From positions 1-25,758 of IMG/VR virus record IMGVR_UViG_3300031841_001101: 25,758 nt of DNA, one strand, 5' to 3'. Below, piece by piece: positions 5,241 to 25,587 of the stretch. The position numbers were made by a program, and so were the translations under genes. Each line of letters opens with the position of its first letter. The first letter of the stretch is position 1. The notes under the pieces were generated by a model. That model ran no database searches. It was given only the letters and a program-made list of their open reading frames with translations, and was not told where the DNA came from. This stretch comes from a virus.

Positions 5241-7075
5241 TGGCTGAAGTTACCGAACAGATAGTCCGCGAAGCCCCGGAGATTGAAGCCTATAAATTAG
5301 GACTTCTTCAATCTGCAAAAGATCTTTCTGACAAGGCTATCACGCTTCCCACCCAGCAAGTAGCTGGGTTTACGGGTCTCCAAGACTTAGCCTTCCAAGC
5401 CGCTCAGCAACAGGGCGGCATTGGCGGTTATATGCCTTATCTTACCGAAGCGGGCTACACGATGGGCGATGCCCAGCGCCAGCTTGGTGGTGTATACGGC
5501 ACGGCTTCCCCGTTCATTACAGGTGCTATGCAGACCGCCGACCCGTACCGTCAGGCGGCAGAAGCAGGTCTTTTGTCCGCGATGCAGGGTGTTCCAACTC
5601 AGGTTGGTGCAGCACAGCAGGGGATTGAGGGCGCACTTCAATTTGGTCAGGGTGCAACTAGTGGCGCGTTGGGCGCGATGGACGCGGCATCTCTCGCGGC
5701 CCGCGGCCAATCGCAACGGGGTATTGGTAGTATTTTAGCGGCCGCGGGGTTAGTTCCGGGTCAACTTAGCACGGCGCAAACCGGTGCCCAGCAAGCTATT
5801 CAGGGCGCTCGTGGAATCACCGGTCAAGCCGGTCGGCAAATTCTAGGCGCAGCAGGGGCCGCGGCCCCCGGAACTCAGGCCGCTATTCGTCAGGCGCAGG
5901 CCGCCGGACGTATGGGCATGGGTGCAGCGCAAGCGGGCATAGCCGGTCTTGCGGGTGGCGCACAACAGTTTGACCCAAGCTCTGTGTCGCAATACATGAG
6001 CCCATATGAAGATGCAGCCGTGCAGCAGGCACTAGCGGACATCCGCCGTGAAGGGCAAATTGCGGCGCAGGGTCAAGCCGCGCAGGCGGTTGGTGCAGGG
6101 GCTTTTGGTGGTTCTCGTGGGGCCGTGGCACAGTCTGAGTTGGCGCGTAATGTCATGGAACAACAAGCGCGGACCGCGGCTCAAATGCGGGCGCAAGGCT
6201 TTGAAACGGCCGCTCAGCGGGCGCAGGCCGCTTTCGAGCAGGCTCGTGGTCGCCAGCTACAGGCGGCAGGTCTTACCGGCCAGCTTGGTCAGGCTGGAGC
6301 AGGCACCGCGCTTCAAGCGGCACAGCAGGCTGGTGCTCTTGGTCAGGCGCAGGCGCAACTTGGGGTTGGCGCGGGGCAGGCGGCAGGTCAGTTGGGTCTG
6401 TCCGCAGAACAACTTGCTGCACAAACTGGGCTACAGTCCGGTCAGTTGGGTCTGTCCGCCGCACAACAGCAGGCGGCTATGGCGGAGCAGGCGGCACGTC
6501 TGGGTATTTCTACAGAACAACTTGCTGCCCAGATCGCCCAGCAGGGCGGTCAGTTGGGTCAGGCGCAAGCACAGCTTGGTCTTTCCGGCGCACAAGCGGG
6601 CGGTCAGCTTGGCCTTCAGGGTCAGCAGGCGTTGGCTGGCATGGCTGGTCAGATGGGCGACATCGGGCTTCAGTACGGCCAGTTTGGTCTACAGGGCGGT
6701 CAGGCGTTGGGTCAGCTTGGGTTGCAAGCTGGTCAGGCGTTGGGTACATTGGGTCTTCAGCAGGCTAGCCTTGGTGAACTGGCTCAGCAGGCTGGGTTGC
6801 GTGACCTACAAACTCGGTACGAGCTTGGAAAACAGCAGCAGGCTCAGCAGCAGGCAACTCTGGAAGCCAAGCGTCAAAGCGATTTGGCGCAGCTTTACGA
6901 GCCATATCAGCGTCTGTCATTCTTGTCAGACATTTATAAAGGTGCTCCGTCATCACAGCAGACTATTGCTGCATCGACCGCACCAAGCGTATCACCCGCT
7001 CAGCAATTTTTGGGGCTGGGCGTAGCGGGTCTGTCAGCGGCAGCAGGGGCTCAGAAAGCAGGGTTATTCGGATGA
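5240..7075 (+). CDS. Ala/Gln/Gly-rich virion protein with 18-residue repeats
   Basis: 611 residues, starting at an ATG that overlaps the previous stop (TAATG). The N-terminal third is helical and Gly/Ala/Gln-rich. Around residues 245-300 is a conserved-looking module (S-P-Y-E-D-A-A-V-Q-Q-A-L-A-D-I-R-R followed by G-A-G-A-F-G-G-S-R-G-A-V) that I recall from other marine phage structural proteins. Residues 347-526 are ten tandem 18-residue repeats. The end has a Q-rich coiled coil (about 527-555) and a hydrophobic Gly/Ala tail. No enzyme motifs are seen. It sits among long virion proteins and is probably an internal core or ejection protein forming a long helical assembly. Its stop overlaps the next start (ATGA). 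Confidence 0.75.
   Translation: MAEVTEQIVREAPEIEAYKLGLLQSAKDLSDKAITLPTQQVAGFTGLQDLAFQAAQQQGGIGGYMPYLTEAGYTMGDAQRQLGGVYGTASPFITGAMQTADPYRQAAEAGLLSAMQGVPTQVGAAQQGIEGALQFGQGATSGALGAMDAASLAARGQSQRGIGSILAAAGLVPGQLSTAQTGAQQAIQGARGITGQAGRQILGAAGAAAPGTQAAIRQAQAAGRMGMGAAQAGIAGLAGGAQQFDPSSVSQYMSPYEDAAVQQALADIRREGQIAAQGQAAQAVGAGAFGGSRGAVAQSELARNVMEQQARTAAQMRAQGFETAAQRAQAAFEQARGRQLQAAGLTGQLGQAGAGTALQAAQQAGALGQAQAQLGVGAGQAAGQLGLSAEQLAAQTGLQSGQLGLSAAQQQAAMAEQAARLGISTEQLAAQIAQQGGQLGQAQAQLGLSGAQAGGQLGLQGQQALAGMAGQMGDIGLQYGQFGLQGGQALGQLGLQAGQALGTLGLQQASLGELAQQAGLRDLQTRYELGKQQQAQQQATLEAKRQSDLAQLYEPYQRLSFLSDIYKGAPSSQQTIAASTAPSVSPAQQFLGLGVAGLSAAAGAQKAGLFG
6278..6817 (+). repeat. Ten coding tandem repeats of 54 bp (18 residues)
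   Basis: The reading frame splits into ten consecutive 18-residue units, roughly (G/A)-x-L-G-L-x-x-x-Q-x-A-A-x-x-x-x-Q-x. The DNA also repeats: a 20-base word starting at 6386 recurs exactly at 6440 (54 bases on), and a 16-base word at 6405 recurs at 6513 (108 bases on). Later units are more diverged. Eighteen residues equal five alpha-helical turns, so the same face would recur in every unit. Confidence 0.85.
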
Positions 7076-13100: not shown

Positions 13101-14216
13101 GGGCAGGTAGCTCGTAATAAGCAGATTACTCAAGAGATGAAGGGTAAATACTCCTTCTACAGCTTGATTAACGATAAGTCAGAAACACCGGCAGGTACGA
13201 TTTCTAAAGCAATTAACCTGTCTAATGACCGGCCTATCCGCAACCTTGAGTCACTGTGGCTACCCGTCAAGAATGCACCGGATACGTGGGTTAGCCCTGC
13301 TACCGGCGAGACGTTTCTGAAAACAGACGCGGTAAACGGTTTCAAATCTTCTGTGCTTGATGCGGTCTTCCTCAACTCAGGCCTGCACACAAACAACTTT
13401 AGCCCGAACAAAGCTTATCAAATCTTGTTCATGCCTAACCAGAAGGCCGTCGGTAAGAAGCGTCTGGCCGACTGGCTGGTAGATAACGATGTCTTCACCT
13501 CAGATGAAATGAAAAATCTGGAAGACATGATGGGCATGATGATGGACTTTGAAAACACCATCTTCAATGGCAGTGCCGCTGATGTAGATGGGCTTATGGC
13601 AAAAATGGGGCCGTCCGCCGACCTCATTTTGTCTGTTCTGGGTTCAAGCGCAGGTATGCGGTTGCAGTCTATGCTTCCGGGAGATACCGGGGCGGGCTCA
13701 CTAATCGCCGCGGGCCGCGGTGCTTCGGCCTTCCGCTCTGCTTACAGCGAAGTGTTCGCCAAGATGCCTAACGTGTTAAAGATGGACCTGCTCCGTGAAA
13801 TTGTTAAAGACCCAGAAATGCTGGCTTTGACCCTGCGTAAAGGCAAAACTGAATCTGAAAGAAACCGTATCGGTTCACGCATGATGAACTGGATGATTGA
13901 CAACGGCTTTGCTATTCCACGCAGAACATTACCCGGCGCGGTCGTGCCTCTTGACGAACCGCCAGCAGAAATTGAGCCGGAAGTCATTGAAGAAAGCTCT
14001 GTGCAGATGCCTGTTGCACAGCCACCGTTACCGACGCCGCAAGCGGCACCTCCCACAACCGCGTTGGCGTCGGCTGCTCCTGTTCAACCACAGCCCGTCG
14101 CGCCTCCTCCCGTGGCCAGCGGACCTGTGGACAGGAGCCGTTTTGCAGCGATGTTCCCAACCGACATTGCATCTGGAATGATCCGTCAACAGGGCATAGG
14201 AAGTCTGATGGGATGA
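10119..14216 (+). CDS. Giant putative internal virion/DNA-ejection protein
   Basis: 1365 residues, the longest gene in the window, starting at a TAATG overlap. Residues about 110-185 are Gly/Ala-rich and hydrophobic, able to contact or cross a membrane; a second Gly-rich stretch lies near 305-330. The long middle is helical with no obvious enzyme motifs. Residues about 1274-1340 are a Pro/Ala/Gln-rich linker. The last 25 residues (R-F-A-A-M-F-P-T-D ... G-I-G-S-L-M-G) form a terminal motif partly shared with the protein ending at 15383. Length and position resemble the large ejected core proteins of T7-like phages, but I see no clear lytic transglycosylase motif. The role is inferred from context. 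Confidence 0.74.
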   Translation: MADPAPQIDVPYPFAQFEKEEAEQLFDIFRRDGKDQEQGFAQMLSGTLALENPSDPNYLSYQGLKEGTAGVFSQLPQFADLPPEERKLTDGQILQLFAFDMEGRPFQPGSYIEGGKRGILPGLFSAGAFWAGATATNTAMQANPFTATPVTPWQVGARVIAPIAGGTVAAYGGSEFGTYLTEEMLGQEPILLPSSAYKNIAGQVTTENIGLALLPFTLSGKTSLGALTVVDKFTPVVYKGPKKGFVVPRSFKITRGTENLLQRLSEEAYNRPFRFIGAEAFASAGSGYLRGEAERIAPGEMLPAITSEMIGGVTGGVAGDLILKKSVDALNVLRTANRVRKEYGVMEGLKQLRGKNEQEVANFLIDFIGKYSGDAVRQTVKQLDGESNADYILRTDMMAVDQVIENLSDDNLAKALSDYEAATGKKVELTAGVKSRSVPIMALEKALETTSAGIGSQRGTANKQAIDAMRLMIVGLWGTADPTAVNQAAKLMQDGFEGELSSQLDARMANLTDAVAKLQTGEAGGDPEQMTALGTRIYDMVRMTMGQNRARERALWSAVPGRIEITSFKGADGSDVDLPNTITVWDTIFSPDAAPESNKHIRNELSDLIAFSERKGTEFGVGGQIGGQAGVPKAVTKFNDALAEAEGTDSYNMFNKMVDQFGLNEPTDEAIRKLAELSRQSTYKGKKSATAKLYDMKRQALIAQRDAGATTAVASTDGGIMTVGELTSMRSRALALARNAEMQGKSDVANAAYKYVTAIDNDLNSLPEGTNLEYDIARSFSRAFNDVYTRGFAGDVVAKDATGALRIAPEQLGRIIFSGSDGGYLRAKDLDGIGRFQLEQSMTTLLMSQGEEGAALLNSAKAAAVDPETGMFNIEKLRGWVQENKDALEALPGYSIREVGEGQLEAVAGGTTLLNNINDTVQATQSIRGTMDSILRNIKAEAFDPADPSKVNPAALRKWMSKSENEVILKAFPDLADDLNRIIDGDEGALALFNGQVARNKQITQEMKGKYSFYSLINDKSETPAGTISKAINLSNDRPIRNLESLWLPVKNAPDTWVSPATGETFLKTDAVNGFKSSVLDAVFLNSGLHTNNFSPNKAYQILFMPNQKAVGKKRLADWLVDNDVFTSDEMKNLEDMMGMMMDFENTIFNGSAADVDGLMAKMGPSADLILSVLGSSAGMRLQSMLPGDTGAGSLIAAGRGASAFRSAYSEVFAKMPNVLKMDLLREIVKDPEMLALTLRKGKTESERNRIGSRMMNWMIDNGFAIPRRTLPGAVVPLDEPPAEIEPEVIEESSVQMPVAQPPLPTPQAAPPTTALASAAPVQPQPVAPPPVASGPVDRSRFAAMFPTDIASGMIRQQGIGSLMG

Positions 14217-14662
14217 TTGGTGACGCGCTGATACTCATGTTACAGTCAAAAATGCACCGTGAATGGTATTTGCACGATCTTGAGCGGTTAATAATCCCTG
14301 CGATGTTAAATGACAAGCTGGAGATCATGTATGAAGACTCGCGGCCCACGGGTCTTTTTACCTATGCGTTTTTGCCGAAAGATGTGCGCGAAAGCTACAA
14401 GTCCGGAAGCAAAAAATTACAAGCAAACATCTGGAGCAACGGCCCAAATGATGGTATTCTTCATGTGATAGATTTCATAGCGCCATACGGGAACGCTTTA
14501 AAATTAGGTAGATTTGTACAAAAGAGTCTGACAGAGCGCTATCTTGAAACCTATCCACACGACGGGGCTTATTTTATCCGCCAAGCGCAGGGTAAGCGTC
14601 AGGGGTATGCCACTGGCGTAAGAGAAGAGTTAGAACTGCGGAGATTTTGTTGTGCTGTATAA
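14213..14662 (+). CDS. HlyC/CyaC/RtxC-like toxin-activating lysine acyltransferase
   Basis: 149 residues, coupled to the giant virion gene by an ATGA overlap. It resembles HlyC-family acyltransferases, which move a fatty acyl group from acyl carrier protein to internal lysines of RTX toxins. Seen here: S-K-M-H-R-E-W (12-18), matching the S-x-x-H-R-x-W motif with catalytic His (here His15); a Pro-containing helix (L-I-I-P-A); an R-P-T-G-L-F-T-Y-A-F-L stretch matching the HlyC strand before its S-W-A motif; W-S-N-G; and V-I-D-F-I-A-P-Y-G (85-93), matching the I-D-W-I-A-P-F-G motif with catalytic Asp (here Asp87). At 149 residues it is slightly shorter than HlyC (170). No RTX toxin is nearby, so the substrate is probably a phage or host protein. 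Family assignment is fairly sure; substrate unknown. Confidence 0.8.
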   Translation: MIGDALILMLQSKMHREWYLHDLERLIIPAMLNDKLEIMYEDSRPTGLFTYAFLPKDVRESYKSGSKKLQANIWSNGPNDGILHVIDFIAPYGNALKLGRFVQKSLTERYLETYPHDGAYFIRQAQGKRQGYATGVREELELRRFCCAV

Positions 14663-15397: not shown

Positions 15398-16846
15398 CTA
15401 AAGTAGCCACTCTTTAGCCGCCTCTCCCAGCACTTTTCCCGCTAAATCAATCTTGCTACGCAGGGCTTTTAGCACCTTCTCGTCAATAGTGTCTGGCGAC
15501 ACCAAGTCGATATAAGTCACTTTACGGCTCTGTCCGATGCGGTGTGCGCGGTCTTCGGACTGCAACCGTATCTCTAAGTCGTAACTGTTGCTGTAATAAA
15601 TGACCGTATTCGCCGCAGTCAGGGTGATGCCGTAGCCGCCTGTCTTAGGCTGACCGACAAAAAACCGTAGTGGGCCGTCCTTATCCTGAAAGCGCTCCAC
15701 GATCTCTTGCCGTTCATCTTGCGGCGTAGCACCATAATAAGTTGCGACCGCTTCGGGCCCAAAGCGGTCGCGCAGGGCATTGGCTACCTGTTGGATGTCG
15801 TGTGTATACGTCGCCCAAATGATAGCCTTACCCTGTAACTCGTCAGTAATCTCCAGCAACTCCCGCAAGCGGTTGTTGTCCAGAGCCTGAATTTCCCCTT
15901 CATCCGGTTGAAGGTGACCACAACATATCTGTTGTAGCCGCATAATCTGTGTCAGCACACTTGCTGTAGTAGCTAGCTCCCCATTTTCTAATTTAGCAAG
16001 CGCCAATTTCTTCATCTGCTTGTAGACGCGCTTCTGCTCATCGGTCAGTTCAACGTCGCGCCGTATATACATCTTATCAGGTAGATCCAAGCACTGCTCT
16101 TTCAGGATGCGGTTACTAAACCCATCTAGCCTCTGGTTGAGCTCATCCAGCCGCCGATAGCCCACGATCTCCTGAAATGCACGGGTGCCCATCTTGCGCT
16201 TTTGCACCAGCGCATAGCGGTTTTGGAACGCATAGTAGCTGTTAAACCCCAATGCTTCCGGGGACAGGAACATACATTGCGAAAACAAATCCATCGGAGA
16301 CTTAGTCACAGGGGAGCCTGTCAGGATGCGTTTGTATGTGGCATCTTTTGCCAACATCATTATGTTCTTAGTGCGCGTCGCTTTGCGGTTTTTGATCGTC
16401 GTGCTTTCGTCCACCACCATTATGTTGTCGGGGTTTTCTTTCAAAAAGAAATATGCCACCTTTGTGCCACGCGGCGTGGACAACGCCTCGACGTTCATTA
16501 CAAACACTTTGAGCCCTTCAAACTCACCATACACAAGTTCGTGCATTTCTTCTTGAAACTTTTTTGTGGCAGAGGGCGTCCAGCGCACAATCGTGCGCTC
16601 AATGTCATCGGGCAAGTGAGTAGGTATTTCACCTTTTACCCAGTTGTCATAAACACCTTTAGGCGCTAGAATTAAAGCAGCACTTATCTTTTTGTCTTTG
16701 TACAAAGCCCCGATAGTGTCAATCGCCACCTTGGACTTACCTGTTCCCATCTCCATGAACAGTGCGTAATAGTCCGCGGCCCACGAGTCTTCCCACGCTT
16801 TTTGCTGATGGTCGAACGGCTTCGTTTTAAATTTATAATCCCGCAT
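15398..16846 (-). CDS. SNF2-family (SF2) DNA helicase/translocase
   Basis: 482 residues from the ATG at 16846, chosen because AAGGAG (16854-16859) lies eight bases upstream; a GTG at 16864 would place that ribosome site inside the gene. It has the two-lobe SF2 core: Walker A M-G-T-G-K-S (33-38), a motif Ia A-P-K-G-V-Y-D-N-W region near 61-69, Walker B V-V-D-E-S-T (144-149), motif III L-T-G-S-P-V-T (175-181), motif V G-G-Y-G-I-T-L-T-A-A-N, and motif VI Q-S-E-D-R-A-H-R-I-G-Q (429-439), typical of SNF2 proteins. Such phage enzymes are ATP-driven duplex DNA translocases thought to aid replication, recombination or protein removal. It is the only complete minus-strand gene, transcribed away from the replication operon. 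Confidence 0.92.
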   Translation of the reverse strand: MRDYKFKTKPFDHQQKAWEDSWAADYYALFMEMGTGKSKVAIDTIGALYKDKKISAALILAPKGVYDNWVKGEIPTHLPDDIERTIVRWTPSATKKFQEEMHELVYGEFEGLKVFVMNVEALSTPRGTKVAYFFLKENPDNIMVVDESTTIKNRKATRTKNIMMLAKDATYKRILTGSPVTKSPMDLFSQCMFLSPEALGFNSYYAFQNRYALVQKRKMGTRAFQEIVGYRRLDELNQRLDGFSNRILKEQCLDLPDKMYIRRDVELTDEQKRVYKQMKKLALAKLENGELATTASVLTQIMRLQQICCGHLQPDEGEIQALDNNRLRELLEITDELQGKAIIWATYTHDIQQVANALRDRFGPEAVATYYGATPQDERQEIVERFQDKDGPLRFFVGQPKTGGYGITLTAANTVIYYSNSYDLEIRLQSEDRAHRIGQSRKVTYIDLVSPDTIDEKVLKALRSKIDLAGKVLGEAAKEWLL

Positions 16847-16853
16847 GATTTTT

Positions 16854-16859
16854 CTCCTT
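16854..16859 (-). promoter_or_regulatory. Ribosome binding site setting the helicase start
   Basis: The minus strand reads AAGGAG, eight bases before the ATG at 16846. This near-ideal Shine-Dalgarno site favours that ATG over the upstream in-frame GTG at 16864. Confidence 0.8.
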
Positions 16860-16886
16860 GACACTAAGATAATATAAGCATATATA
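16858..16886 (+). promoter_or_regulatory. Sigma-70 type promoter for the replication operon
   Basis: A consensus -35 TTGACA (16858-16863) is followed after exactly 17 bases by TATATA (16881-16886). The start of transcription would be near 16893, giving a leader of about 45 bases before the AGGAG (16926-16930) and ATG at 16938. It overlaps a leftward promoter. Confidence 0.75.
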
Positions 16887-16898
16887 TGACATTGTCAA
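16871..16898 (-). promoter_or_regulatory. Sigma-70 type promoter for the leftward helicase
   Basis: On the minus strand a -35 TTGACA (16898-16893) is followed after 16 bases by TATATT (16876-16871). The predicted start is near 16864, leaving an 18-base leader that carries the AAGGAG of the helicase gene. The two promoters overlap face to face, so RNA polymerase should not occupy both at once. Confidence 0.65.
16887..16897. promoter_or_regulatory. Palindromic possible operator in the divergent promoter
   Basis: TGACA-T-TGTCA is a perfect 5-1-5 palindrome. It covers the leftward -35 element and the region just downstream of the rightward -10, a good position for a repressor site controlling both directions. 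A third TGACA half-site lies in the rightward -35 box. The binding protein is unknown; the small ribbon-helix-helix protein at 24368 is one candidate. Confidence 0.45.
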
Positions 16899-16937
16899 GG
16901 CCCGAACGGTGCCTTTAACCACGATAGGAGAAACGCG

Positions 16938-18370: not shown

Positions 18371-19912
18371 ATGTCTGTAGAAAAGTTTTCCGCCGTATTT
18401 AATGGCCTACAGTTGGCCTACGGCACATATAAAATAGAAAAGCAGCAGGCTAACGGGAAGAACACCGGTAGAGCCGCCATCATACGCGAACCGCGCACCA
18501 CGGCACTTTGGGAAGGTCACCTGTCCGGTAAGGGGCGGGGTATTGGTATCATACCGATCAACGAAGACAATAATTGTGTTTGGGGTTGTATTGATGTTGA
18601 CCAGTATCCGCTAGACCACAAGCTACTGGTAGAAAAAATCCGCAAGCTAAAGCTTCCGCTTGTTGTTTGTCGCTCTAAGTCCGGCGGCGCACACTGCTTC
18701 CTGTTTACCACAGAGTGGGTGGAAGCCAAAGATATGCAGGCTACCCTGCAACAGATTTCCGCCGCATTGGGATATGGCGGCAGTGAGATATTTCCAAAGC
18801 AGGTGAAACTTCATCTCGACCGCGATGATGTAGGCAACTTCCTGAACCTACCTTATTACGACGCGGAAGACGGACTGCGATACGCGATTAAAGAAGACGG
18901 CACATCGGCCACACTAGAAGAATTTTTTGAACTATACGAAGCGCACAAGCAGACGCCAGAGCAGTTGTTGAAACTGCAAATCGGGGATGAAGCCGAAGCG
19001 GCATCAATGAAGGACGGACCGCCTTGTCTGCAATTTCTGCTGAAGAACAAAATCAGTGAGGGTGGGCGCAATAACGGCCTGTTCAACATCGGCGTGTATC
19101 TACGCAAGGCTTACCCAGATAGCTGGGAGTCAGAAATCTTGCAATATAATATGCAGTATCTGGTGCCACCTCTGCCGCTGAATGAAGTCAACATTGTGGC
19201 AAAGCAGTTAGAACGTAAAGACTACGCCTACAAATGCTCAGATGCCCCCATCAACGCGCATTGCAACAAGGAACTGTGCCAGACCAGAAAGCACGGCATC
19301 GGTGCCGCTATTCAAGGCGCGGCGATTGCTAACCTGCGTAAATATAATTCCAACCCGCCGGTCTGGTTTCTGGATGTAAACGGGGAACCGCTGGAACTGG
19401 ATACTGAAGGCCTGATGAGCCAGCCGACGTTTCAGAAGGCTTGTATGGAGCAGTTGAACTTTATGCCGCGCTCTGTAAGCAAGCAGGTCTGGGAAGGCCG
19501 CATCGGCGGTCTGCTGACAGAAATGAAAGACAACGAGAGCGCCATTATTGAGGTGGCAGAAGACGCCAGCATCAGTGGCCAGTTTTACGACTATCTGGAA
19601 GAGTTCTGCGTCCATCTACAGAAAGCCAACGACAAGGAAGAGATCCTACTTAAACGGCCTTGGACCGATGATGAAGCAGGGGTCACCCTGTTCCGTTTGA
19701 AAGATTTTGAGAATTTCCTCAAGCGTAACAAGTTTTTTGAATACAAGTCACACAAGATCGCCCAGCGTCTACGCGACAAGGGAGGGGAAAGCACTGTTCT
19801 AAAGATTAAAGGCAGGCCTGTCCGTGTGTGGCAAATCCCTTCTTTTGAAACAGCAGAGATTGAATTAAACACGCCAGACTTTGGCGGCAACCAAACGGAG
19901 GCACCTTTCTAA
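18371..19912 (+). CDS. Archaeo-eukaryotic-type (AEP) DNA primase/primase-polymerase
   Basis: 513 residues with GGGGA five bases before the ATG. The N-terminal half is an AEP catalytic core: C-I-D-V-D (73-77) gives the metal-binding Asp75/Asp77, K-S-G-G-A-H (103-108) is the nucleotide-binding s-x-H motif, and K-L-H-L-D-R-D-D ... G-N-F-L-N-L-P (146-161) the third motif. Then comes a PriCT-like region with E-G-G-R-N-N-G-L-F-N (230-239) and a probable zinc site (Cys219, Cys289, Cys298, Cys303). The last 130 residues are helical and unassigned. It should make primers on ssDNA for the polymerase encoded at 22273. No RecA-like helicase domain is fused, so unwinding must come from a separate helicase. 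It ends E-A-P-F, faintly like an SSB tip. Confidence 0.85.
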   Translation: MSVEKFSAVFNGLQLAYGTYKIEKQQANGKNTGRAAIIREPRTTALWEGHLSGKGRGIGIIPINEDNNCVWGCIDVDQYPLDHKLLVEKIRKLKLPLVVCRSKSGGAHCFLFTTEWVEAKDMQATLQQISAALGYGGSEIFPKQVKLHLDRDDVGNFLNLPYYDAEDGLRYAIKEDGTSATLEEFFELYEAHKQTPEQLLKLQIGDEAEAASMKDGPPCLQFLLKNKISEGGRNNGLFNIGVYLRKAYPDSWESEILQYNMQYLVPPLPLNEVNIVAKQLERKDYAYKCSDAPINAHCNKELCQTRKHGIGAAIQGAAIANLRKYNSNPPVWFLDVNGEPLELDTEGLMSQPTFQKACMEQLNFMPRSVSKQVWEGRIGGLLTEMKDNESAIIEVAEDASISGQFYDYLEEFCVHLQKANDKEEILLKRPWTDDEAGVTLFRLKDFENFLKRNKFFEYKSHKIAQRLRDKGGESTVLKIKGRPVRVWQIPSFETAEIELNTPDFGGNQTEAPF

Positions 19913-20160
19913 TGTTACTAGCGGACGGATTTGATAAGGCTTTTATAGGAGTGGGCTTACGAGCCGGACAGGAAGAGATAGTCGTGTACGACTTTGATAT
20001 ATGCGTGGCTATATTGTGTGAACGAGACAACATGGATCTGGATGATGCGATTGAGTTCATGTACTACAATGTTGTCGGGGCTTGGATGGGAGAAGGCACC
20101 CCTTTGTTTGTTCAACGAATGAATAACATAGGAGATCTTCACGATGTCGATGTCGATTAG
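19912..20160 (+). CDS. Small conserved phage protein of unknown function
   Basis: 82 residues, coupled to the primase by a TAATG overlap. It has the pattern L-L-A-D-G-F-D-x-A-F-I-G at the start, V-Y-D-F-D-I-C-V-A-I-L in the middle and N-V-V-G-A-W-M-G-E-G-T-P-L-F-V near residues 54-68. I recall this as a widespread family of small phage proteins without known function. No cysteine pairs or membrane segments are seen. Its end overlaps the next gene by 17 bases. It probably acts with the replication proteins, but only by position. Confidence 0.78.
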   Translation: MLLADGFDKAFIGVGLRAGQEEIVVYDFDICVAILCERDNMDLDDAIEFMYYNVVGAWMGEGTPLFVQRMNNIGDLHDVDVD

Positions 20161-20515
20161 AAATCAGGAAATCTACAGAGAACGGGTAGAAGAAAAGAGA
20201 ACGCTTCAAGCTATTGCCAATAAATATGCAATTAGTCGTGAGCGGGTACGCCAAATAGTAAGAAAAGTGGGCAAAGATAACGAGCTTGAGAAAAGCTTTC
20301 CAGAAACACCTGTTCGGGTTTTTGACATTCAATGGACTCGCCGGACATATAACTGCCTACGTAACGAAAACCTTACGCCAATGTTTCTATCAGAGTTTGT
20401 TGAGCATACCAAAACAAACGACCTGCGCAGAATACCAAACTTAGGCAAGATAAGTCTGCGTGAGATAAAAACAAAACTAGGCAATCATGGACACGTGTTA
20501 CCTTATGGATACTAA
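20144..20515 (+). CDS. Sigma-70 region 4-like HTH fused to an RNA polymerase alpha-CTD-like domain
   Basis: 123 residues with GGAG nine bases before the ATG. Residues 10-42 match sigma-70 region 4.2, the -35-recognition helix-turn-helix: T-L-Q-A-I-A-N-K-Y-A-I-S-R-E-R-V-R-Q-I compares with T-L-E-E-V-G-K-Q-F-D-V-T-R-E-R-I-R-Q-I of E. coli sigma-70. Residues 64-115 match the RNA polymerase alpha C-terminal domain: R-T-Y-N-C-L-R-N-E-N (67-76) and P-N-L-G-K-I-S-L-R-E-I-K (98-109). By this alignment E. coli R265, N268, C269, G296, S299 and E302 are kept (R67, N70, C71, G101, S104, E107), while K298 is Ile103. It is probably a promoter-directed transcription regulator acting with host RNA polymerase. 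Both halves are recognised by pattern. Confidence 0.8.
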   Translation: MSMSIRNQEIYRERVEEKRTLQAIANKYAISRERVRQIVRKVGKDNELEKSFPETPVRVFDIQWTRRTYNCLRNENLTPMFLSEFVEHTKTNDLRRIPNLGKISLREIKTKLGNHGHVLPYGY

Positions 20516-22022
20516 GATATTCCGTATATACGGCCCGCCCGGAACTGGTAAGACTACAGCCCTGCTCAACAAAGTGGACGAGGCCCTTTCATCCGGCGTG
20601 GATCCTGCCCACATCGGCTACTTTGCCTTCACTCGCCAAGCGGCTAACGAGGCTGTCGAACGCGCCTGCACCCGCTTTAACTTTGAACCTGCACAACTGC
20701 CGTGGTTCCGCACTCTGCACAGTTTTGCCTTAAAGCTGTCGGGTATTCGCCAAGAACAAGTTATGCAACCAGAGCATTACAAAGAACTAGGCCACGCCGT
20801 TGGGCACAACTTGGTAACAGGCACAAGCACAGAAGATGCTTTCGATTTAAAAAAAAATAACAACCCTATCATCGGCCTCATCAATCTAGCACGGCTACGC
20901 AAAGTTGATTTGCGGCAACAATATGACGAGAGCGAATTAGATATAGCGTGGACTACCATCAAGTATGTGGCAGACAGCCTAACTGAATACAAAAACAGGT
21001 TTAACCTCTACGACTTCACCGATATGTTGGAGGTGTTTGTGCGCGACGGCGCAGGGTTCTGTCCCCGCCTAGCCATAACCTTTATCGACGAAGCGCAGGA
21101 CTTGTCTCCTCTACAGTGGGACGTGGCTCATGTGCTGGAGCAACACTCAGACCGCATCTACTGCGCGGGGGATGATGACCAAGCCATCTATCGCTGGGCA
21201 GGTGCCGATGTCGAACACTTTATCGGCCTCAACGGTGGCTACGAAGTGCTTGAGCAGTCCTACCGCGTACCCGCTACCGTCCACCCGCTGGCGGAGCGCA
21301 TTGCAAAACGCATCGTGCGCCGCGTACCAAAGACCTATCTGCCACGGCAAGATAGGGGCAAAGTACAACGCATACCAAGCACCGGATACATAGGATTTGA
21401 GGAGGGTTCGTGGCTCGTGCTGGCTCAAGCCGGATACTTCCTAGATGCCGCTACCGATGACTTAAAAAGCCGCGGCTTCCTGTTTAGTCGTAATGGAAGA
21501 CGGTCTATCTCAGAAAGACTGAGCGAGGCCATCAACGGCTGGGAACAACTGAGAAAAGGCAAGAGAATTACGGGCGAGGCCGCACGAGCCATTTACAGTT
21601 ATATGTCTGTCGGGGACAGAGTCAAGCGCGGATTTAAGAAACTGCCCGCTTTAGACGATGATGAATTAGTTAACTTTGAAGAGTTGACAGTTAACCACGG
21701 CCTGCTAGCCACTATTGACATGATCTGGCATACGGCTATGGACAAAATGCCCAGCGGTGACCGTGCATACATCACGGCTCTTCTGCGGCGCGGCGAAAAG
21801 TTTAATGCCGTACCCCGTATAAACCTGTCCACGATCCACGGATCTAAAGGAGGCGAAGCCGACAATGTTGTGCTATATACAGACTTATCCCCTGCCGCGT
21901 CTAAGGCCGCTGAGACGGCACCAGATGACCTGCATAGAGTGTTTTATGTGGGTGTAACCAGAACCAAGCAGAACCTTTACTTGGTTGAACCCGAAGACAC
22001 GAACAGGAGTTATTGGATATGA
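20487..22022 (+). CDS. UvrD/PcrA-like SF1 DNA helicase
   Basis: 511 residues with the SF1A motif set: Walker A G-P-P-G-T-G-K-T (16-23), Ia F-T-R-Q-A-A-N-E-A (48-56), T-L-H-S-F (76-80), II D-E-A-Q-D (201-205), III G-D-D-D-Q-A-I-Y-R-W-A-G-A (228-240), IV Q-S-Y-R-V-P (257-262), V S-T-I-H-G-S-K-G-G-E (about 455) and VI V-F-Y-V-G-V-T-R-T-K (485-494). It is shorter than UvrD/Rep (about 670-720), closer to compact phage helicases such as T4 Dda. It probably unwinds DNA 3'-5' during replication or recombination and may serve as the fork helicase, as no DnaB-like protein is seen. The ATG at 20505 is an alternative start; neither has a strong ribosome site. It overlaps the upstream gene. Confidence 0.93.
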   Translation: MDTCYLMDTKIFRIYGPPGTGKTTALLNKVDEALSSGVDPAHIGYFAFTRQAANEAVERACTRFNFEPAQLPWFRTLHSFALKLSGIRQEQVMQPEHYKELGHAVGHNLVTGTSTEDAFDLKKNNNPIIGLINLARLRKVDLRQQYDESELDIAWTTIKYVADSLTEYKNRFNLYDFTDMLEVFVRDGAGFCPRLAITFIDEAQDLSPLQWDVAHVLEQHSDRIYCAGDDDQAIYRWAGADVEHFIGLNGGYEVLEQSYRVPATVHPLAERIAKRIVRRVPKTYLPRQDRGKVQRIPSTGYIGFEEGSWLVLAQAGYFLDAATDDLKSRGFLFSRNGRRSISERLSEAINGWEQLRKGKRITGEAARAIYSYMSVGDRVKRGFKKLPALDDDELVNFEELTVNHGLLATIDMIWHTAMDKMPSGDRAYITALLRRGEKFNAVPRINLSTIHGSKGGEADNVVLYTDLSPAASKAAETAPDDLHRVFYVGVTRTKQNLYLVEPEDTNRSYWI

Positions 22023-24303: not shown

Positions 24304-24305
24304 GC

Positions 24306-24334
24306 TTGCAATAATACTATATATCTTATATATT
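24306..24334 (+). promoter_or_regulatory. Probable sigma-70 promoter for the RHH gene
   Basis: TTGCAA (24306-24311) and TATATT (24329-24334) are 17 bases apart, directly after the terminator. The transcript would begin near 24341, 27 bases before the ATG at 24368. Each box is one or two bases from consensus, within a very AT-rich stretch. Confidence 0.6.
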
Positions 24335-24367
24335 CGCTTATAGAAACACAAAATATAGGGTTTTTTC

Positions 24368-25156: not shown

Positions 25157-25328
25157 GGAACCATTCGGGGATGCTGGTGTAATACAAAAGGCGTTAAACG
25201 AAGGCAGATGCCCAAAGTGCTTAGTTAACCTGCCAGAGCCCGCGGACAACGGGTCAGTGACCTGTCCGGTCTGCTTACTAACAGTTGGAGACTATCGTGA
25301 TATGTCCGAAATGCAAATCAAAGAGTAA
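25140..25328 (+). CDS. Small zinc-ribbon protein
   Basis: 62 residues from the ATG at 25140, with GGGGAG (25127-25132) seven bases upstream; an in-frame TTG at 25134 is unlikely. Two knuckles, C-P-K-C (24-27) and C-P-V-C (42-45), make a typical zinc ribbon. The N-terminus is basic (R-P-K-N-R) and the C-terminus acidic. It overlaps the DnaJ-type gene by 17 bases and the NrdR-like gene by 32 bases. The role is unknown. Confidence 0.75.
   Translation: MRPKNREPFGDAGVIQKALNEGRCPKCLVNLPEPADNGSVTCPVCLLTVGDYRDMSEMQIKE
25287..25290 (+). promoter_or_regulatory. Ribosome binding site setting the NrdR-like start
   Basis: GGAG lies six bases before the GTG at 25297, inside the upstream zinc-ribbon gene. 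It supports the GTG start over the in-frame TTG at 25285, which would overlap this site. Confidence 0.65.
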
Positions 25329-25587
25329 GGTCTACGACTCACGGCCCACAAAAGACGGCACAATACGCCGTAACCGTGAGTGCCTCAAATGTAGACACCG
25401 TTACGCCACAGTTGAAGTGTTGGCGGAGATAAAAAAAGAAACTGCAAAGCCGGTTCAAAAAAAGAAACTATCAAAAAAGGCTCAGTCCGCACGATCAATG
25501 GCGCGGCGGCTGGCTAGTCGAATGTCTGATGATGAACTGTTCGAAGCTTTGGAAAAAGGTTTTATATCTGCGGATGATCTAGATTAA
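25297..25587 (+). CDS. NrdR-like zinc-ribbon protein lacking the ATP cone
   Basis: 96 residues from a GTG. Residues 1-40 match the zinc ribbon of NrdR, the bacterial repressor of ribonucleotide reductase genes: M-I-C-P-K-C (Cys3, Cys6), V-Y-D-S-R (12-16), T-I-R-R-N-R-E-C-L-K-C (22-32, with Cys29, Cys32) and R-Y-A-T-V-E. NrdR is about 150 residues with an ATP-cone domain after this ribbon. Here the ribbon is followed by a Lys-rich linker (45-65) and a short helical acidic end (S-M-A-R-R-L-A-S-R-M-S-D-D-E-L-F-E-A-L). It could bind NrdR-box DNA without nucleotide control, or simply bind nucleic acid. No ribonucleotide reductase gene is in the window. Confidence 0.75.
   Translation: MICPKCKSKSKVYDSRPTKDGTIRRNRECLKCRHRYATVEVLAEIKKETAKPVQKKKLSKKAQSARSMARRLASRMSDDELFEALEKGFISADDLD

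Follow-up and report, generated by a model that had tools for sequence, protein, structure and literature searches.

A small phage protein pairing sigma region 4-like and alphaCTD-like domains, a candidate promoter-level regulator of host RNA polymerase

In phage T4, AsiA and MotA are separate proteins, and neither carries fused copies of sigma region 4 and of the C-terminal domain of the RNA polymerase alpha subunit (alphaCTD). Both are phage proteins that redirect the host RNA polymerase via sigma region 4 at the -35 element (PMC6755090). In E. coli, alphaCTD residues D259 and E261 contact R603 of sigma70, the two domains being adjacent on the promoter (PMC5511352), and joining the C-terminal end of sigma4 to the N-terminal end of an alphaCTD fits that geometry. 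The gene described here, from an uncultured aquatic phage, encodes such a chain. It occupies positions 20144..20515 on the plus strand of the window, by which we mean the whole stretch of 25,758 nucleotides that was analysed, and its 123-residue product has a sigma-70 region 4-like N half and an alphaCTD-like C half. Judged from its sequence, the fusion protein probably binds promoters and controls the timing with which phage genes are read; the best overall explanation, to which we assign a probability of about 0.5, is a small DNA-binding regulator of host RNA polymerase acting at promoters. No published description of this architecture was found in literature that takes in few subscription journals, in agreement with the sequence-only reading of this DNA, which knew of no such phage regulator.

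Domain content and predicted structure

The open reading frame is preceded by an AGGAG motif (20130-20134) 9 nt 5' of its ATG, and an in-frame ATG at 20150, which is the start in most relatives, gives a product of 121 residues. Exactly two Pfam families exceed their curated cut-offs in the 123-residue protein, Sigma70_r4 (PF04545; residues 6-41, 30.0 bits, E=3.6e-7, cut-off 24.1) and RNA_pol_A_CTD (PF03118; residues 57-113, 37.2 bits, E=2.4e-9, cut-off 23.8), which bears out the earlier proposal that a single protein combines sigma region 4 with an alphaCTD. The top NCBIfam matches were RpoA (E=6.5e-9) and RpoH (E=3.7e-6), both well under the whole-protein cut-offs because the fusion protein has one domain of each; the RpoA equivalog matches cover the C-terminal part of the models only. 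Among PDB sequences, alpha subunits match the C half (best 6e-6), whereas weak matches to region 4 of RpoH and SigA fall in the N half. PHROGs holds no good family for the protein, the best being a weak match to a late-activator helix-turn-helix (HTH) family (phrog_836, E=1.2e-4), and the weak similarities of the HTH to Mor and KorA stay under the Pfam cut-offs (Mor/C, PF08765, 18.1 bits against 24.9; KorA/TrfB, PF16509, 17.0 bits against 26.7). Pfam and NCBIfam recognise no sigma region 2, the part responsible for core binding and -10 recognition, in the 123 residues, and the alphaNTD, which serves dimerisation and core assembly, is absent; lacking these parts, the fusion protein is neither a sigma factor nor an alpha subunit.

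The sigma-70 region 4-like HTH (residues 6-41, positions 20159..20266, plus strand) carries the -35 recognition helix motif SRERVRQI at residues 31-38. Read on the sequence, S31-R-E-R-V-R-Q-I38 aligns with T583-R-E-R-I-R-Q-I590 of sigma70 (E. coli numbering). The motif, as SRERxRQI, is invariant across the family alignment, and conservation in the N half is highest at the residues that recognise -35 DNA. The match to the 50-position Sigma70_r4 profile sets in at position 8, and three helices precede the linker in the model; region 4 appears to lack its first helix, which belongs to the flap-binding surface.

A linker of about 15 residues (20267..20311, plus strand), variable in the alignment and of lower pLDDT at about residues 41-50 of the model, leads to the alphaCTD-like domain (residues 57-113, positions 20312..20482, plus strand), which exceeds the alphaCTDs of bacteria and of other viruses by about 3 residues. 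In a subclade, L023-L028, the linker is about 11 residues shorter. R67, N70, C71, G101, S104 and E107 align with R265, N268, C269, G296, S299 and E302 of E. coli alpha. A diverse set of 40 viral alphaCTD proteins, to which the window protein belongs and L023-L028 do not, keeps R67 without exception; in L023-L028 the family alignment has glycine in place of the R265-equivalent arginine. The suggestion that most DNA-contact residues are kept therefore holds for all six positions of the window sequence and fails at the R265 equivalent in that subclade. The position equivalent to E261 is Q, P or H, not acidic, and the linker shows no conserved equivalent of R603.

An AlphaFold2 model of the 121-residue form, calculated from an alignment of 48 rows that included L086, a homologue, and alphaCTDs taken from further viral proteins, reached a mean pLDDT of 90.4 and a pTM of 0.59; an earlier model from 14 close relatives (pLDDT 67, alphaCTD half poor) was set aside. 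Each domain is modelled with confidence, and their mutual placement is uncertain at that pTM. In VIA-align comparisons alphaCTDs head the structural matches of the C half, with Z 9.6 and an rmsd of 2.1 A over 65 residues for 1z3e_B and Z 8.7 for the alphaCTD (chain C) of 3n97, a complex of alphaCTD, sigma4 and UP/-35 DNA. The N half, with modelled helices at residues 3-14, 19-26 and 30-49, matches sigma domain 4 structures at Z 7.7-8.3, among them 3hug (Z 8.3), a Thermus thermophilus sigma (Z 7.8) and 6jhe, SigW domain 4 with -35 DNA (Z 7.9). Other HTH proteins match it about equally (DesR, Z 8.1; ArdK, Z 7.8), and the sigma identity of the N half thus rests on sequence rather than fold. A Foldseek search of the model against PDB and BFVD returned nothing at E<=0.001. 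The predicted structure agrees with a sigma domain 4-like N half and an alphaCTD-like C half; profile searches find both domains rather than one, and the C half lies nearer to alphaCTDs than to other HhH folds, as had been supposed from the letters of the gene.

Both halves being polymerase parts, the protein might also be a polymerase-bound adaptor that takes the place of host sigma4 or alphaCTD, or covers it, and does not itself bind DNA specifically, its sigma4-like half sitting on the beta flap or its alphaCTD half on host sigma4 or an activator. The appropriation of sigma by T4 AsiA and MotA is an established precedent for such an activity (PMC6755090), and one subclade has no R265 equivalent, which suggests that the DNA contact of the alphaCTD is dispensable there; but conservation in the N half is strongest precisely at the -35 DNA-recognition residues, and the first helix of region 4 appears to be missing, so that we regard an adaptor as improbable.

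Conservation, genomic slot and nearest phages

A profile scan found a relative of the gene in 25 other IMG/VR contigs, the products being 64-90% identical to the fusion protein, with one short fragment excepted. Against the window gene, the scorable relatives give dN/dS values of 0.13-0.22 for the gene as a whole and of 0.07-0.25 for either half taken separately, so that both halves are maintained under purifying selection, and the reading frame is, by its recurrence and its dN/dS, a real gene and not a chance one. Some relatives (L003-L006, L014 and L017; for instance L003:2736-3305) have an additional HTH-like stretch after the alphaCTD. Contig scans with the family profile and with a profile of L055/L064, by a short-pattern method that could miss diverged copies, found no relatives in bacterial genomes, and in INPHARED phages the only alphaCTD matches were to rpoA genes or to a record that carries no annotation.

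The gene sits in a replication block on the plus strand, and the protein is therefore probably made early in infection. It follows a primase gene (18371..19912; phrog_21866, AEP-TOTE domain) and an open reading frame for 80-82 residues (19912..20160; phrog_13182, with no Pfam match), whose stop overlaps its start, and its end is overlapped by a gene for a UvrD-like helicase (20487..22022). This order is kept in most of the relatives read, as in the window, L001 and L003; in L007 and G002 the primase is followed directly by the fusion gene, and a separate 80-residue frame is absent from the lists of open reading frames. Elsewhere in the window, an HlyC-type protein (RTX toxin acyltransferase family, PF02794, E=2e-18) is encoded amid structural genes at 14213-14662, with a similar frame in G001 (21312-21761), and an NrdR-like zinc-ribbon protein (PF22811, E=7.7e-13) at 25285-25587.

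The four closest named phages, DSL-LC04, HTVC023P, HTVC027P and 023Pt_psg01, do not have the fusion gene: profiles PF03118 and PF04545 found nothing in them, with controls and family members positive, and the A2 profile, run without a positive control, was likewise empty. The gene was thus gained in one branch or lost in others. In DSL-LC04 a homologue of the 80-residue frame occupies the same slot and the helicase follows directly. This DSL-LC04 product, annotated as 'RNA polymerase sigma-G factor' (WJZ48105.1; OR003939.1 31404-31661, L031:8252-8509), was considered as a homologue of the fusion protein and rejected, as it resembles the product of 19912-20160, which has no Pfam match; the label is probably a misannotation. 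HTVC027P gp05, a further candidate for a homologue filling the slot, was ruled out by its sequence.

No RNA polymerase was recognised with Pfam and PHROGs in a non-exhaustive look at the largest open reading frames of the relative G001 or at their homologues in the window, G001 being probably complete because of its exact 301-bp terminal repeat. A search of the relatives for the phage-type RNA polymerase profile PF00940 was empty, and its control gave no match either. The related phage HTVC027P has been stated to rely on the host RNA polymerase (PMC12753301). Another candidate DNA-binding regulator is encoded in G001 (5659-6975, minus strand), a protein of 438 residues to which PHROGs gives several HTH-like matches and Sigma70_r4 two weak ones.

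The position between primase and helicase would suit an accessory replication or repair protein with no link to transcription, built from a generic HTH of Mor/C, KorA or HNH-associated type and a generic HhH DNA-binding domain. The weak Mor, KorA and phrog_836 matches are compatible with this, as is the neighbourhood of two HTH/alphaCTD genes in other viral contigs, those of L055 and L064, both near RecT and the latter also near SSB. Sigma70_r4 and RNA_pol_A_CTD are, however, the best matches and the sole two above Pfam cut-offs, alphaCTDs lead the structural matches of the C half, and L086, a homologue, is encoded upstream of a terminase; taken together, we consider an accessory role of this sort quite unlikely.

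A candidate target and the proposed role

Upstream of the replication block, at 16858..16898, two overlapping divergent promoters are found, TTGACA-N17-TATATA on the plus strand and TTGACA with a spacing of N16/18 on the minus strand, whose -35 boxes form the dyad TTGACA-N29-TGTCAA. The TTGAC...GTCAA arms and their spacing are identical in every family locus in which this stretch is covered, and the sequence between them varies. Of the two sites proposed as binding targets from the sequence alone, 16847-16937 corresponds to this real and conserved divergent promoter region with its dyad, and 24304-24367 gives only a weak promoter-like match. In DSL-LC04, which is without the fusion gene, the dyad is not there at the corresponding region, a single case in a distant relative. 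We regard 16858..16898 as a candidate binding site for the fusion protein. The GTG listed as the start of the minus-strand SNF2-type helicase gene (16864) falls inside the promoter region, and an ATG at 16846 with AAGGAG is the likelier start.

A second, partly conserved region lies 5' of terL (G001:57098-57314; G002:22841-23100, minus strand) and includes GTTAACTGACTAAAAA...GCATATTTAT, possibly a weak late promoter. A 16-mer palindrome, TGTTTCACGTGAAACA, is also present upstream of terL (G001:57192-57207, equal to L114:17192-17207; G002:22932-22947, equal to L116:2932-2947) and in HTVC027P (MN698241.1, 16412-16427) with 1 mismatch; it resembles the chromosomal ParB site parS.

The fusion protein likely regulates host RNA polymerase at the level of promoters. 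The N half would use the major groove to read a -35 box resembling TTGACA, with the C half placed in the minor groove beside it or in contact with host sigma4, and one chain would thereby carry the sigma4/alphaCTD pair normally supplied by two polymerase subunits. By these contacts the protein would shift the host polymerase to middle or late phage promoters, the likelier outcome, and strong early promoters may possibly be damped. A role mainly as an activator has slightly less than an even chance, and a role mainly as a repressor is a weaker possibility; activation of later promoters seems somewhat more likely than repression. In favour of such a regulator count the two domains past their cut-offs, the conservation and purifying selection of the gene, its slot, the lack of a recognised RNA polymerase, and the conserved divergent promoters with consensus -35 boxes before the replication block in relatives; the invariant recognition motif and the recurrence of the pairing in other contigs point the same way. 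Against it weigh the apparent lack of the first helix of region 4, the glycine of L023-L028, the non-acidic E261 equivalent together with the lack of a conserved R603 equivalent, and the uncertain relative placement of the modelled domains; moreover, early divergent promoters so near to consensus should need no activator.

The same promoters could be the targets of a competitive repressor, which would occupy -35 boxes and the upstream minor groove and so block the host RNA polymerase holoenzyme. Early genes would be shut off if it acts on the strong early promoters of the phage itself, host genes if it acts on host promoters. A consensus TTGACA dyad of constant spacing before the replication block in all family loci covering the region would suit such an activity, as would a recognition motif close to that of sigma70 and an N-half fold also like the plasmid repressors KorA and ArdK, and blocking is what a small protein with no core-binding part would naturally do. 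Such a dyad is, however, also how any two divergent sigma70 promoters that overlap would look, and the alphaCTD half would be superfluous for simple blocking, which leaves competitive repression possible but rather doubtful.

Recurrence and comparison with known systems

A scan for viral alphaCTD-like proteins yielded the fusion family and 56 other loci. Many of these (L048-L103) are small IMG/VR proteins in which coiled coils, DUFs or HTH domains are joined to an alphaCTD-like domain. When 40 non-redundant alphaCTD proteins, the window protein among them, were scanned for Sigma70_r4 at E<=0.05, six gave a match, namely the window protein and five in unrelated contigs: L064 (1.1e-8) and L057 (9.7e-6), above the Pfam cut-off like the window protein, and, weakly, L096 (0.012), L086 (0.018) and L048 (0.02). 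The HTH of L096 is better fitted by another HTH family. The HTH precedes the alphaCTD in the window protein, L064, L086 and L096, and follows it in L048 and L057. L086 is collinear with the window protein over both domains (31% over 118 columns; profile comparison E=2.6e-12), and L055, 40% identical to L064 along its length, has a similar N-terminal stretch and no Sigma70_r4 match. By this count among 40 proteins, the sigma4/alphaCTD pairing appears as a recurrent design and is not unique to the window phage. It may be, and this is a tentative thought, that phages have repeatedly built one-chain sigma4-alphaCTD copies, in both orders, that reprogram host RNA polymerase as promoter readers re-creating the sigma4/alphaCTD/DNA arrangement of the holoenzyme; such readers would need neither a phage polymerase nor a complete sigma factor.

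The fusion, present also in unrelated viral contigs, is of interest because it copies two polymerase surfaces that meet at the -35/UP junction. If promoter binding is true, it would offer a compact natural handle on the cooperation of sigma4 and alphaCTD, and a candidate explanation of gene timing in HTVC023P-related phages, in which neither an RNA polymerase nor a complete sigma factor is evident.

Compared with described proteins, the fusion protein shares with the Mor/C late transcription activators (phrog_836, PF08765) the character of a small phage HTH regulator and a weak HTH similarity, but the match is under the Pfam cut-off and the partner domain is here an alphaCTD copy. The KorA and ArdK plasmid repressors have a similar HTH fold (ArdK, 47 residues at the Z given above); they differ in the sub-threshold KorA match and in the alphaCTD-like C-terminal partner of the fusion protein. 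With region 4 of bacterial sigma-70 of RpoD/RpoH type it has in common the (S/T)RER(V/I)RQI HTH, the PF04545 match and the sigma domain 4 fold, whereas it appears to have the last three helices only, and without region 2 or 3 it cannot be a sigma factor by itself. The alphaCTD of RNA polymerase has the same fold, the same NCL...PNLGK core and, in the window protein, equivalents of all six contact residues; in contrast to bacterial alpha, the fusion protein is without an alphaNTD, about 3 residues longer in this domain and joined to sigma4, and has lost the R265 equivalent in one subclade. By analogy, the closest functional precedent is the AsiA/MotA pair of T4, from which the present protein would differ in that AsiA and MotA act as separate proteins without fused sigma4 and alphaCTD copies (PMC6755090), whereas both are here carried by a single chain.
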